A stretch of 64,000 nucleotides of DNA from an uncultured bacterium (lineage in GTDB: Bacteria; Cyanobacteriota; Vampirovibrionia; Gastranaerophilales; Gastranaerophilaceae), in contig CAIPUE010000015.1 of NCBI GenBank assembly GCA_903868125.1, positions 62,001 through 126,000 of the forward strand, in the 5' to 3' direction. Shown here one piece after another: positions 32,904-60,896 of the stretch. The translations under genes and the position numbers were made by a program. Position 1 is the first letter of the stretch. Each line of letters begins with the position of its first letter. A model generated the notes under the pieces. The model was given only the letters and a program-made list of their open reading frames with translations, searched no databases and was not told the DNA's origin.

Positions 32904-34070
32904 ATGGAATTATCAGGATTACAGGTTTTTAAATATTTACCGGCAGCAAAGAGACTGCCTGAGGGGAATTGCAAAAAATGCGGATTTCCGACTTGCATGG
33001 CGTTTGCGCTTAAGCTTGCTAAAAATCAGACTGAAATTCAACTTTGCTCTTATGCGCCCGAGGAATTAAAAGAAATTTTCGAGCAAGGGATGAAAAAACC
33101 ACAAAAAGAAGTTTTTCTGGGGCATAAGCATAAGGTTTTAATCGGCGGGGAAAATGTCCTTTTTCGTCACGACAAGACTTTTGTGAATAAAACGGCTATC
33201 GCGGTTGTACTGGATGTTTCACAAGTAGGCTGGGACGAAAAATTTAAAAGAATTACCGAATTTGAAATTACGAGAATTAACGAAACTTTTAAGGTCGATT
33301 TGGTCTATTTAAAAGGCGATGTTCGACCTGAATTAACCCAAAAGCTTGACAATTTGGGCTTTGCGTATATTTTTGAAGACGACTTGAAAGATATTATGCA
33401 AGTTGAAGACGGAAATGTTTTTGAAACAATCCAAACTTTGACAACGATAAGAAAAAAAGCGGTTTTGGAGAAAGACGAAAATTATTCAAATCCTGTTATG
33501 GTTTATTTTAGGCATGATGAAAATATTCTCAAATTAATGTCAAGAGCTGGTTTTTACCTCTGTAAGTACACTAATTTACTTATTTTTGAGGATTTTAATG
33601 AAGCGCTGATTTCTACATTGATTACATTGCGCCAAAATATTTATACTGACCCGCAAAAACCTTTACAGGTGGAATCTAAGGTTTATGAATTTAATAACGC
33701 AGATGAAAATTCATTAATATTTTTGACAACAAATTTTGCCTTGACTTATTTTGCGGTCTCAAATGAAATAGAATCGTTGAATAAGCCTGCTTATATTGTG
33801 GTTACCCCATCTGACGGAATGAGTGTTTTGACCGCATGGTCGGCTGAGAAATTCACGGCACAGATTGTCGCAAAAACGGTTAATCAATTTGAATTAGCAA
33901 AAAAGGTTAAAAACAAACAATTAATAATCCCAGGGCTATTGGGCCACATGAAAGAAGAAATAGAAGAAGCATTGCCCGAATTCAAAATTCTTGTCGGTCC
34001 AAACGAAGCATATTTGTTAGGAGATTTTGTTAAAGGATTAACTGTTTTTAAAAATGAGGACACGGAATAA
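32904..34070 (+). CDS. corrinoid iron-sulfur protein large subunit (AcsC/CdhE-like)
   Basis: 388 aa. The N-terminal [4Fe-4S] module has C23-x2-C26-x4-C31-x16-C48 ('NCKKCGFPTCMAFALKLA'). A TIM barrel and a C-terminal cobalamin-binding part follow ('KQLIIPGLLGHMKEEIEEALPEFKILVGPNEAYLLGDFVK'). It is somewhat shorter than acetogen AcsC (about 440). It would carry a methyl group on cobalt. Without CODH/ACS nearby, the methyl acceptor is unknown. AAGGA lies upstream of the ATG, and a mobile-like element begins 10 bp after the stop. Confidence 0.87.
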   Translation: MELSGLQVFKYLPAAKRLPEGNCKKCGFPTCMAFALKLAKNQTEIQLCSYAPEELKEIFEQGMKKPQKEVFLGHKHKVLIGGENVLFRHDKTFVNKTAIAVVLDVSQVGWDEKFKRITEFEITRINETFKVDLVYLKGDVRPELTQKLDNLGFAYIFEDDLKDIMQVEDGNVFETIQTLTTIRKKAVLEKDENYSNPVMVYFRHDENILKLMSRAGFYLCKYTNLLIFEDFNEALISTLITLRQNIYTDPQKPLQVESKVYEFNNADENSLIFLTTNFALTYFAVSNEIESLNKPAYIVVTPSDGMSVLTAWSAEKFTAQIVAKTVNQFELAKKVKNKQLIIPGLLGHMKEEIEEALPEFKILVGPNEAYLLGDFVKGLTVFKNEDTE

Positions 34071-34079
34071 TTCCAAAAT

Positions 34080-34236
34080 GAGCTTGCGGAAAAATTAAAA
34101 TTTTCCTCGCAAGCTCCTATGTCCGGCTTAAATCCATACCGCCGGCTATCCAGCAGCCGGTATGGATTTAGCACTTCTTAGGTCGGATTTAAAAAATTGC
34201 AAAAAATTGTCATTTTTTGCAATTTTTTAAATCCTC
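34080..34236. mobile_element. MITE-like element, copy 1
   Basis: 157 bp beginning GAGCTTGCGGAAAAATT and ending in CTC. It is flanked by AAT on both sides (34077-34079 and 34237-34239). It has three hairpins: a 5' stem with GAGCTTGCG, a central 13-bp stem with TAAATCCATACCG, and a 21-bp A/T-rich 3' hairpin. About 90% identical to copy 3 (60607); also matches copy 2 (38410). No coding capacity. Confidence 0.85.
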
Positions 34237-37093: not shown

Positions 37094-38332
37094 TTAATTT
37101 CTTATTTGAACTAACGGTGGAGGTGGGCGTTTGCTGTGATTTTCGGTCGGAAATGGGAAGTTGAATTTAAACGGCGATTGATGAGGCATTTCTTTTATGC
37201 ATCCTGACTCGGTAGATGGATAGATTAAAATATCTCCGTTAGGTGCTATGGCTTTTGAACATTCTTCTATGCCATTGGTATTATTTATCATAGGGCGATT
37301 CGGTTGAGAGTCATATTTTGCTCCTCTGCCGAAATATCTAATAGCCCTTTTTTCAATAGTACCTAAGCGAAAGTCCGAAGTATATCGAAAATAACTGACA
37401 TCTATTCCCTCAGAGTTTAATTTATTGAAAATATCTCGGAATAAATCTTTTGCACTTTCATCACTTAACTCAAACTTTGTTAATAATGATTCATCATATT
37501 CAAGTATAATGCCGTAAGTACGAATTTTATCCTTTAACCCGATTGTGCTTTTTATAACATTTGCCATCATCCCGACATATTTATCTCGCCAGATTTTAGC
37601 TTCTTCATGCTCTCCGGCTTCGGCATGTTTAATACTTTTTTGCATATAATCATGAAACGGATGAACTGAAATACAAAAGTTGTCTAAGCATTCAGGATGT
37701 TCAACAAAACTTTCCGCTGCTTTTTGAGACGTTTTATTGCCAACAGGCCAGCCCGCTGTTGTTACTATTGTTTTAGTTCCTGTTTTTTCATAATAATATT
37801 TTGCCATATCAAATATATTACGCAAAATGCCGTCTTTACCCTTGCTTTTATACATCATAGGATCATTATCTTTGAAAAAGTATATTGTTCTATCAAAGTG
37901 AAAAGGATTATAACCCAGTCTTTTTGTTAAGGTTGATATGTCGTCAGTCAGTGCAGTAAAATTGTCCCACTGCATTGTAGTTATTTTATTTTCGGAATCA
38001 ACCGCACAATGTGAGCATTGATGAATACACCCACGTTGCGACATGATACTGTCGAATCCGTTTGTTACAAATTTTAAAACCTTTGCCGTCCAGCCTTGCA
38101 AAGTAGGTAAGCCATCACAAATATCTTTTATTTTATTGAGGTCCAACTTATCTAAAGTAACATAATCCCTCCAAGACTTAAAAGGATTACTCGCCCTAGC
38201 TTCTGCTATGTAATCAAGTGCCGATTGAAGGCTCGTAAAGCTTACGGATTTTTTGTTTTCAACCACTGAAATTCCACGTCGAGCAGGCAAAGGTCTATCA
38301 ATATTTTTTTGAGAATAAGGGGTTATGAACAT
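37094..38332 (-). CDS. radical SAM protein of unknown function
   Basis: 412 aa. The cluster motif C-x3-C-x2-C is in 'RGCIHQCSHCAVDS' (about residue 102). Later parts read like a radical SAM barrel ('TKTIVTTAGWPVG', 'FCISVHPFHDYM'). A further Cys pair sits near the C-terminus ('GIEECSKAIAPNGDILIYPSTESGCIKEM'), perhaps a SPASM-like site. The N-terminus is polar with 'SVSFTSL'. Substrate unknown. Copy 2 of the MITE-like element lies just upstream. Confidence 0.7.
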   Translation of the reverse strand: MFITPYSQKNIDRPLPARRGISVVENKKSVSFTSLQSALDYIAEARASNPFKSWRDYVTLDKLDLNKIKDICDGLPTLQGWTAKVLKFVTNGFDSIMSQRGCIHQCSHCAVDSENKITTMQWDNFTALTDDISTLTKRLGYNPFHFDRTIYFFKDNDPMMYKSKGKDGILRNIFDMAKYYYEKTGTKTIVTTAGWPVGNKTSQKAAESFVEHPECLDNFCISVHPFHDYMQKSIKHAEAGEHEEAKIWRDKYVGMMANVIKSTIGLKDKIRTYGIILEYDESLLTKFELSDESAKDLFRDIFNKLNSEGIDVSYFRYTSDFRLGTIEKRAIRYFGRGAKYDSQPNRPMINNTNGIEECSKAIAPNGDILIYPSTESGCIKEMPHQSPFKFNFPFPTENHSKRPPPPLVQIRN

Positions 38333-38409
38333 TTATAAAAAATCCTATTTTTGCACACTACTAATCTAACTATTTTTTATAAAACAGCTGAAGATAAAAA
38401 ATTGCCTAT

Positions 38410-38568
38410 GAGCTTGCGGAAAAATTAGGAATTTTTCTCGCAATCTCCCTTGTCCGGCTAGCACCCATACCACCGGCTATCCCGCAGCTGGTATGGGTGC
38501 TAGCACTTCCAAGGTCGGACTTGAAAAATCTCAAAAAACTGTCATTTTTTGGATTTTTCCGCATCCTC
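38410..38568. mobile_element. MITE-like element, copy 2
   Basis: 159 bp, ends GAGCTTGCGGAAAAATT ... and rc GAGGATGCGGAAAAATC, flanked by TAT on both sides (38407-38409, 38569-38571). The central stem is 16 bp (GCTAGCACCCATACCA with its complement). It differs from copy 1 at paired positions on both arms. It lies between recJ and the radical SAM gene. Confidence 0.87.
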
Positions 38569-38616
38569 TATGAATATATTGAACAATCTTGGCGAGTTTA
38601 AATTACAGGTACAACC

Positions 38617-40980
38617 CTAAATTATACCGTTTAATTCTTTTTCAAAAAGCGAATTTTTGTACTCTTTTGAATTTGTAGCATGTTTAACAAATTCCTTGTA
38701 AGAATTTGTGTGTAAGACTTTCGAGATATCGCCGTTTGATAAAAATTCAATCTTATACTCGCTTGTTCCTTTTTCACTAACCTTAATTATTTCACTTTCG
38801 GCAAAAACATTCAGTAATTCAACAATCGTATCTTTTGTTTGTGCCAAAAACGAAGCACTTCTATCAATGTTAAATTTACCATTTTTATTGTTATAAGAAA
38901 ATTTTAGCATCCCCGAAAAAGTTTTTAAAAATTCCTTTTCATCTATTTTTTTTACTTCATAATTCATGAAATGTAAAAACTTAGGCGAAGTCTTTTTTAC
39001 AATCTCATCAAAAAGTTCCTGACTGGCAGGGTAATCAAAAAACATTATTGCATCCACTTTTCGCATGCTTTGGCGGTTAAAAATCTTGTCCGTCAAAACT
39101 TTATAGGATTTTAACCTATCTAAAACCACCTTTTCTTCAGCAAAGACAGCTATATCCAAATTAGAAGTTCTGACATAATCCTCAACGCTTGAAAAAATAT
39201 CCGTTTTTTTGCGGTGATCAAAAACTTTTATTTCAGAAGATTGTGCTTGAGCCGAAATATTTTCGTCTTCTAAATTGTCCGCATGAATATCCTGCAAAAT
39301 TAGTTGAATTGTAGTCGAACCATTAAAAGTATTTACTTGAGGGCAAAAAGCAATATCAAGAACATCTCCCGAAGTAAGCGAAATGTCGCCCTTTGACCAC
39401 CAAATACAATCGTAAGTGTTATTTTGAGAATCTTGCACCACCAATTTAAGGTGAGTTTTATTAGACCCCATCAACTTTTTTTGAAGTAAAGTAAGATTGT
39501 TTAAAACAAAAACAGGATTGGGATTTGCCGCTCCAAACGGTTGTAAACGTTCAATATCAGAAATCAAATTCCCATCAACTTCGTTAGGCTCAAGCTGTAA
39601 ATCAACTTTCAAAATCGGCAGAAGCTTTACCCCATCCAACAGTTCGTCAATTGTTGAATTAAGAGCTTTTTTCACATCTTCAAATGTTACCTTTTCGGCG
39701 TTAAACGAAAGTCCGCCTGCCATTGCATGTCCGCCAAATCCGTCAAATAATTCCGAATTTGCTGATAAAACATCATAGACATTAACCCCCTCAACACTTC
39801 TTGAAGAACATCTAACCTGCTTGGTTTCCTCGCTGTAGGTCATCAAAAATACAGGTTTGTAATATTTTTCCACCAATTTTGAGGCGACAATCCCGATAAT
39901 CCCGATATGCCATTTCGGATTGAATAGAATAATCGCATTATTGTTATTTTCATCATTTTTAAGCATTTCTTCTGCCTCGAGAAAAATACTCTCGCAAAGC
40001 TCTTGCCTAACCTTATTGAAATTATTCAAAGAAATAATCGACATCTCAATCTCTTGTTTATTGTCAGAAGTAAGCACTTTTATCGCATCGTCGACAGTGT
40101 CAAGCCTTCCTGACGCGTTAATTCTCGGAGCAACACCAAATGCAATCTGTTCAGACGTAATCCCCTGTTCTAAATTATACCCCGCACTTTCCAGAAGTTT
40201 TTTTAATCCCCAGTGTTTTTCACTTGCAATTAATTGCAAGCCCCTAGTTACAAAATACCTGTTTTCGCCGATTAAAGGTACTACATCCGATACTGTTCCA
40301 ACAGTAACGTATGGCAAAATATCAGGAATAAAATCCATTTTTTGATAATGTTCCAAAAGTGCCTGAGCCAACTTGAAAGCTACTCCAACTCCTGCAAGCG
40401 AGGTTAAGTGTTCAATTTCTTTAGCCGAAAGTTTTTCATCCAAGGCATTTTGAGCTTTAGGATTAATTATCGAAAATGCAGGCGGCAAAACTTCGGGAGC
40501 CTCGTGATGGTCAGTGATTATTACATCAATTTTAAAACTGTTCATAAATTGAACCTGTTCAACATCGCTTGTCGCACAATCAACCGTAACAATTACTTTA
40601 GGTCTTTTTGTAGCCATCAATTTCACTAACGCTTTGGTGTTAAGTCCGTGTCCATCTTTTTCCCTGTCAGGGATAAAATAATCAACACTTGCACCCAATT
40701 TTCTGAAAGTTCTCAACAATAAAGAAGTAGAAGTTACTCCGTCCGCATCAAAATCACCGTATATAAGAATATTTTGTTGTTCGTCAATCGCTTTAGAAAT
40801 CCGTTCCACGGCTTTTTGCATATCAGAAAAAGCGTTCGGATGAGTAAGTTTTATTTCTAGCGGATTTAAAAATTCTTTAACCTCATCAGGTTTGCTAATT
40901 CCACGCGTTGCCAAAAGTCTTTCAACAAGTGGTGCTGAATTAGATTTCTCATTTTTGGTTATTATCCACTCTTTTTGCAT
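38617..40980 (-). CDS. recJ: single-stranded-DNA exonuclease RecJ
   Basis: 787 aa, longer than E. coli RecJ (577) by a C-terminal extension of about 200 residues. DHH-family motifs: 'IYGDFDADGVTSTSLLLRTF', 'TVDCATSD', 'VIITDHHEAP', 'APRINASGRLDTVDDAI'; DHHA1 has 'GFGGHAMAGGLSF'. An OB-like domain follows ('LKLVVQDSQNNTYDCIWW'). It degrades single strands 5' to 3' in repair. It starts 2 bp after ald, in the pyrF-ald-recJ run. Confidence 0.94.
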   Translation of the reverse strand: MQKEWIITKNEKSNSAPLVERLLATRGISKPDEVKEFLNPLEIKLTHPNAFSDMQKAVERISKAIDEQQNILIYGDFDADGVTSTSLLLRTFRKLGASVDYFIPDREKDGHGLNTKALVKLMATKRPKVIVTVDCATSDVEQVQFMNSFKIDVIITDHHEAPEVLPPAFSIINPKAQNALDEKLSAKEIEHLTSLAGVGVAFKLAQALLEHYQKMDFIPDILPYVTVGTVSDVVPLIGENRYFVTRGLQLIASEKHWGLKKLLESAGYNLEQGITSEQIAFGVAPRINASGRLDTVDDAIKVLTSDNKQEIEMSIISLNNFNKVRQELCESIFLEAEEMLKNDENNNNAIILFNPKWHIGIIGIVASKLVEKYYKPVFLMTYSEETKQVRCSSRSVEGVNVYDVLSANSELFDGFGGHAMAGGLSFNAEKVTFEDVKKALNSTIDELLDGVKLLPILKVDLQLEPNEVDGNLISDIERLQPFGAANPNPVFVLNNLTLLQKKLMGSNKTHLKLVVQDSQNNTYDCIWWSKGDISLTSGDVLDIAFCPQVNTFNGSTTIQLILQDIHADNLEDENISAQAQSSEIKVFDHRKKTDIFSSVEDYVRTSNLDIAVFAEEKVVLDRLKSYKVLTDKIFNRQSMRKVDAIMFFDYPASQELFDEIVKKTSPKFLHFMNYEVKKIDEKEFLKTFSGMLKFSYNNKNGKFNIDRSASFLAQTKDTIVELLNVFAESEIIKVSEKGTSEYKIEFLSNGDISKVLHTNSYKEFVKHATNSKEYKNSLFEKELNGII

Positions 40981-60606: not shown

Positions 60607-60763
60607 GAGCTTGCGGAAAAATTAAAATTTTCCTCGCAAGCTCCTATGTCCGGCTTAAATCCATACCGCCGGCTATCCCGCAGCCGGTATGGATTTAGCA
60701 CTTCTTAGGACGGATTTGAAAAATTGCAAAAAATTGTCATTTTTTGAATTTTTCCGCATCCTC
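60607..60763. mobile_element. MITE-like element, copy 3
   Basis: 157 bp flanked by CAA on both sides (60604-60606, 60764-60766). Ends GAGCTTGCGGAAAAATT and rc GAGGATGCGGAAAAATTC match as imperfect inverted repeats. Nearly identical to copy 1 over the first 130 bp. Confidence 0.87.
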
Positions 60764-60795: not shown

Positions 60796-60896
60796 ATACC
60801 GAGTTGCAATCAAAGCATAACCGATTTAATGTCGTTGGGTTAGCAAACCCAATCTACCTTCCAAATTAAAGTCAGGCTTTGATTGCAACTCGGTAT
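60796..60896. repeat. 101-bp element with 21-bp perfect inverted ends
   Basis: Left arm 60796-60816 and right arm 60876-60896 are perfectly complementary (ATACCGAGTTGCAATC ...). The middle contains the REP palindrome TTGGGTT-AGCA-AACCCAA at 60835-60852. It ends 23 bp before the sugar-binding protein gene and could be a mobile remnant with TA ends or a long regulatory hairpin. Confidence 0.75.

Follow-up and report, generated by a model that had tools for sequence, protein, structure and literature searches.

The window (the whole stretch of 64,000 nucleotides that was analysed) holds three copies of a short repeated element, together with the features collected in Table 1. Copy 2 lies between two ORFs on the minus strand, one at 37094-38332 that by eye resembles a radical-SAM protein and one at 38617-40980 that, again by eye, is recJ-like. 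The element is 157-159 bp long, contains no ORF of its own and has the termini GAG...CTC, with an end sequence of the form GAG(C/T)TTGCGGAAAAAT. Its terminal inverted repeats, GAGCTTGCGGAAAAAT and ATTTTTCCGCATCCTC, are 88% complementary across 16 nt. Approximately 24 copies were found in the 1.89-Mb genome to which the window belongs, several of them at contig ends. Copy 2 falls within a group of near-identical copies with 95-98% mutual identity, and a second group, 82-86% identical to copy 2, includes copies 1 and 3.

Table 1. Copies of the element in the window, with the hairpins and target site duplications (TSDs) located for them.
Feature	Position	Strand	Details
Copy 1 of the element	34080..34236	+	A type, 157 bp, TSD AAT; site empty in sister species (G001:C7:8587-9026)
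Hairpin H3 of copy 1	34185..34234	+	Perfect palindrome; outer arm normally GAATTTTTCCGCATCC
Left TSD of copy 2	38407..38409	.	TAT, 3 bp; A-type TSD length
Copy 2 of the element	38410..38568	+	A type, 159 bp, ends GAG...CTC; site empty in sister species
Hairpin H1 of copy 2 (left end)	38410..38447	+	GAGCTTGCGGAAAAAT..ATTTTTCTCGCAATCTC
Hairpin H2 of copy 2 (central)	38457..38504	+	Outer stem 16 bp; apical loop TATCCC at 38478-38483
Hairpin H3 of copy 2 (right end)	38517..38566	+	GGACTTGAAAAATC..GATTTTTCCGCATCC
Right TSD of copy 2	38569..38571	.	TAT, 3 bp; A-type TSD length
Copy 3 of the element	60607..60763	+	A type, 157 bp, TSD CAA; site empty in sister species (G001:C196:1398-1838)

Each element contains three consecutive hairpins, H1 at the left end, H2 in the centre and H3 at the right end. 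The H2 pairing described in the initial annotation was confirmed: in copy 2, GCTAGCACCCATACCA (38457-38472) pairs with TGGTATGGGTGCTAGC (38489-38504) over 16 bp with no mismatch, and in copies 1 and 3 the 5' arm TAAATCCATACCG (34129-34141 and 60656-60668) pairs with the 3' arm CGGTATGGATTTA (34158-34170 and 60685-60697) in a stem of 13 bp. A second subfamily, the B type, has an H2 stem sequence very unlike that of the A type and an identical apical loop. Across the family the stem sequence has changed widely, whereas 111 of 123 copies retain the loop TATCCC. The C.C and G.A mismatches beside the H2 loop are constitutive, being kept in nearly all A copies. Lone end hairpins have also inserted by themselves, some with TSDs, and lone hairpins with matched variant arms were found (GAGGATGTGG..CCACATCCTC and GAGGATTTGAAAAATTC..GAATTTTTCAAATCCTC). 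In L162 and in contigs C5, C39 and C100 of genome G308 the H3 loop carries approximately 45 additional bases, and some of these variants recur within one genome. Five elements (L024, L203, L045, L055 and L068) are chimeric, one half belonging to this family and the other to a different palindromic element (for example with the left end GGGTGCTAGGATAGTA), which suggests module exchange within the hairpins.

The insertions left duplications of fixed length. A TSD of 3 bp was present at 30 of 36 A-type copies, against 2.1 expected, and one of 4 bp at 40 of 57 B-type copies, against 1.2 expected. In the sister species G001 the flanks of all three window copies are joined, with 93-98% identity, and the junction with one TSD unit was read directly at the sites of copies 2 and 3. 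The element would accordingly be classed as non-autonomous, recently mobile and MITE-like, with a TSD fixed at 3 bp in the subfamily seen in the window and at 4 bp in the sister subfamily. The flanks of B-type copies (L034-L197) look palindromic about the TSD, roughly ACw-NNNN-wGT. Copy 1 interrupts an older palindrome that belongs to a different multi-copy family (GAGGACACGGAATAATTCCAAAATATACAATTT...), seen at 34056-34079 and to the right of 34240; a degenerate version of this host palindrome is present in the sister species, where the insertion is absent. A different palindromic repeat (TACCGAGTTGCAATCAAAGC ... GCTTTGATTGCAACTCGGTA) was seen near copy 3, at 60797-60895, and the sister genome has several places resembling it.

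A covariance model built on 18 elements was used for genome searches, and it detected the element in 41 of 239 genomes from the family and 57 of 286 from the order. When genomes were drawn from across the phylum, the matches were confined to Gastranaerophilales, an order of gut-type bacteria, and the remaining genomes in the draw had none. Candidatus Gastranaerophilales MAGs are among the records that carry the same element. Carriage by viruses was considered and rejected, the end motif giving chance matches only.

The element would be moved by a transposase, but the search for candidates found none. The GAG ends and the 3-bp TSD had led to a guess of an IS5- or IS4-type mobiliser, which was discarded, as DDE_Tnp_1 and DDE_Tnp_1_2 are absent from the genome of the window and from several copy-rich genomes. 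A search for an ISAzo13-type transposase gave no match, but its control was likewise without a match. A longer, autonomous element sharing these ends was not found in the element's own genome, where the end matches were solo hairpins, fragments and chimeras. A tyrosine integrase also came into view, since in eight genomes (L034, L035, L123, L126, L130, L132, L145 and L173) a B-type copy lies approximately 80 bp upstream of a gene for a 179-aa tyrosine recombinase. The element could on this basis be an integron-like recombination site, with its palindrome kept for recombination. The eight sites, however, share one insertion point, and so represent a single insertion carried along. Moreover, neither the window's genome (G000) nor G012, both of which have many copies, contains the integrase gene, many element-free genomes do contain it, and the copies are flanked by TSDs, which the tyrosine-integrase reaction does not make. 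An integron-like site is therefore extremely improbable, and the integrase, lacking co-occurrence with the element, was set aside as a fellow traveller. The shared insertion and its recombinase are perhaps an integrase-bearing mobile unit; in L034, HipB- and HipA-like genes lie on the other side of the insertion.

Covariation of paired bases is widely read as proof of a selected RNA or DNA fold. The predicted fold is stable far beyond chance (z = -9.1 as DNA and -10.3 as RNA, equalled by 0 of 200 shuffles). The base changes between the two stem forms are matched on the two arms, as the initial annotation had noted; they are mostly from A-T to G-C or C-G, but one is from G-C to A-T and one from T-A to A-T. 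A further matched change, from GCTCGCACCC..GGGTGCGAGC to GCTAGCACCC..GGGTGCTAGC, is private to copy 2 when it is compared with its closest relatives. In an alignment of 18 diverse elements, 92.5% of cells were paired and both sides had changed in 24 of 54 pairs, against 2-8 when partners were slid; the observed covariation score was reached by 0 of 500 shuffles. A phylogeny-aware null was then built in the manner of R-scape, by re-dropping the substitutions of each column on the tree and scoring with the G statistic and average-product correction in 40 simulated alignments. For 116 copies from the order Gastranaerophilales, five column pairs were significant at a family-wise 5%. All of them lie on the diagonal of the H2 stem, one (the fifth) just outside the 15 stem pairs first listed, and five further H2 stem pairs had E values of 0.05-0.2. 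The covariation thus held in a larger alignment, as the initial annotation had proposed to check, against shuffles, slides and the phylogeny-aware null and, with the TSDs and empty sites, bears out the earlier description of the element as MITE-like and of its stem as covarying. That description covered one hairpin of three; the two end hairpins (38410-38447 on the left and 38517-38566 on the right) behave like the central one.

Changes at paired positions were counted by parsimony on one tree of 116 short elements, and the counts are approximate. Some 65 pairs had changed on both sides and were still Watson-Crick, and there were some 62 one-sided changes, 32 to A.C, 17.5 to G.U and 12.4 to other mismatches. 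These counts bear on the idea that a structured RNA is transcribed from the copies and selected, as a small RNA, a terminator or an mRNA-end element. Such an RNA is supported by the high predicted stability of the RNA fold (z = -10.3) and by the covariation together with the conserved apical loop. An RNA on the plus strand, however, should tolerate G.U over A.C, and the opposite was seen, weakly; the bias of 32 to 17.5 would favour the minus strand. The copies are also not oriented preferentially relative to neighbouring genes (31 vs 26 same-strand settings) or placed preferentially at gene 3' ends, and in the sister species their sites carry no insertion. A terminator or mRNA-end role was rejected because 17 of 114 copies lie between convergent genes, which is no excess. 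All Rfam families were below threshold, and a known RNA family was rejected, the best match being P14 at 16.8 bits against a threshold of 45 (E 0.62). As far as can be read from the sequences, nothing found points to an RNA role for the element, and a selected RNA is considered very unlikely.

The hairpins themselves carry footprints of copying from one arm to the other. The H2 loop of L160 is inverted, from CTATCCCA to TGGGATAG, and a T.G wobble of its relatives is C-G here. At an insertion site that L132 shares with L034, L123, L126, L130 and L145, the H1 of L132 reads GTTTGCGAGAAAAATGTCAATTTTTCTCGCAAAC and that of the others GTTTGCGGAAAAATTGACATTTTTCTCGCAAAC; in L132 the outer arm has come to complement the inner arm, with a bulge copied across, and the loop is inverted from TTGACA to TGTCAA. 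Similarly, H1 of L143, L153 and L015 has the loop TTTTAA instead of TTAAAA, with matched arms, and in L188 the whole of H1 is inverted. In H3, arms rewritten to match were found in window copy 1 and in L023, L061, L165, L174, L177 and L191, for example GGATGCGG..CCGCATCC in L061, GCATACAG..CTGTATGC in L165, GGCACT..AGTGCC in L191 and GGACGCGG..CCGCGTCC in L177. H3 of window copy 1 has an outer arm that is the exact full-length complement of its inner arm; the loop is not inverted, and the rewritten arm includes a G-to-A change found in copy 1 alone. Complementarity was gained over several bases in one step in this hairpin and in L023, L061, L165 and L191.

Template switching by a polymerase in imperfect inverted repeats is known to give arm homogenization and spacer inversion (PMC7202029, PMC8604942), and one-step compensatory changes in RNA hairpins have been proposed to arise in this way, with ancestral reconstructions (PMC8794818). 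The hairpins of the element may be regarded as quasipalindromes, within which the polymerase, going by this literature, would switch template during replication and use one arm to rewrite the other. In a single step, a mutation on one arm would then acquire its complementary partner, in some cases together with an inversion of the loop, and the covariation of the arms would largely be a product of this process. The initial annotation had read the covariation as a sign of selection for the folded form in RNA or single-stranded DNA. The covariation is real, but by itself it does not show selection, and that reading is supported in part at most: matched changes alone do not prove a useful fold when, in the same genomes, one arm gets copied onto the other. 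Conversion between inverted repeats, which had been named as an explanation that would speak against selection, accounts for part of the data, namely L160, L132, L143, L153, L015, L188 and window copy 1.

The event counts give a less uniform picture. Transitions and transversions stood at 49.6 to 12.5 among one-sided changes and at 30.5 to 30.5 among two-sided changes, and the route via wobble pairs is not dominant for the latter. This contrast is also unexplained by plain copying, which predicts the same ratio for random mutations copied across. The C.C and G.A mismatches next to the H2 loop, persisting as they do, suggest that copying tracts rarely reach that far. Together with the kept loop and the internal-branch counts given below, these points allow for some selection. 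Most single-pair compensations can be attributed to neither process specifically.

A second way to explain the matched arms is that the fold is selected as single-stranded DNA or a cruciform, a transposase or host protein reading the hairpin shape, so that well-paired copies alone keep moving and compensation proceeds base by base. In favour of this are the fixed loop TATCCC on a changing stem, the insertion of lone hairpins with TSDs and the covariation of the end hairpins, which leaves the terminal-repeat sequence partly free. A stepwise intermediate was also found at an orthologous site, with A.C in G001:C53 and G-C in L006. Compensated changes were slightly enriched on internal branches (29:33 vs 17:45, p = 0.04), a pattern that could reflect either selection among propagating copies or just a longer time span. 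Against these observations, the strict 3- and 4-bp TSDs are better explained by a transposase that cuts the two strands of a duplex at staggered positions than by known forms of single-strand hairpin transposition, and the several multi-base, one-step arm changes with loop inversion are unlike the outcome of selection on single mutations. Selection on the fold as the main cause of the covariation is thus judged unlikely. Less likely still is a transposon of the cut-and-insert kind in which both the ends and the centre are recognized as folded hairpins, with the sequence drifting freely and arm copying maintaining foldability; if this were true, the mobility of the element would be maintained by template switching.

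On balance we favour, as probable, a MITE-like element of three hairpins, moved by a putative transposase, in which the arms covary largely through template-switch copying. Lineages that keep transposing would probably need an intact central hairpin with the loop TATCCC, judging from the conservation of that loop, and it is possible that selection contributes at the central hairpin, mainly given the fixed loop. The family is of general interest in that its strong covariation was in part visibly made by one-step arm copying, with loop inversions as witnesses. Its many copies, orthologous insertions and empty sites amount to a natural test of the speed of arm copying in bacteria, and also of how far covariation tests of the R-scape type are misled at mobile palindromes.

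No description of such elements in Gastranaerophilales was met in a literature search, and this mobile hairpin family appears to be undescribed so far; it would be a new MITE-like family, while the mutation mechanism at its hairpins is already known. With bacterial MITEs (e.g. MITEAba12, PMC6382973) it shares short length, lack of coding capacity, multiple copies, inverted-repeat ends, a fixed TSD and empty sites in relatives. It differs from them in having three hairpins in a row rather than one simple inverted-repeat unit, in having subfamilies with the same ends but a 3- or 4-bp TSD, and in that no parent insertion sequence was found. The REP and REPIN sequences moved by RAYT transposases (PMC3116915, PMC3733652) are likewise small, intergenic, mobile palindromes that also occur as single hairpins; the element described here, however, has GAG...CTC ends where a REP hairpin has a GTAG or CGTC tag at its foot, and it is flanked by clear TSDs. 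The closest parallel in mechanism is quasipalindrome template-switch mutation (PMC7202029; PMC8604942; PMC8794818), in which an arm is rewritten as the complement of the other, spacers are inverted and several bases change in one step. The reports of that process concern E. coli reporters, yeast genes and rRNA or miRNA hairpins, whereas the hairpins studied here belong to the many copies of a mobile element.
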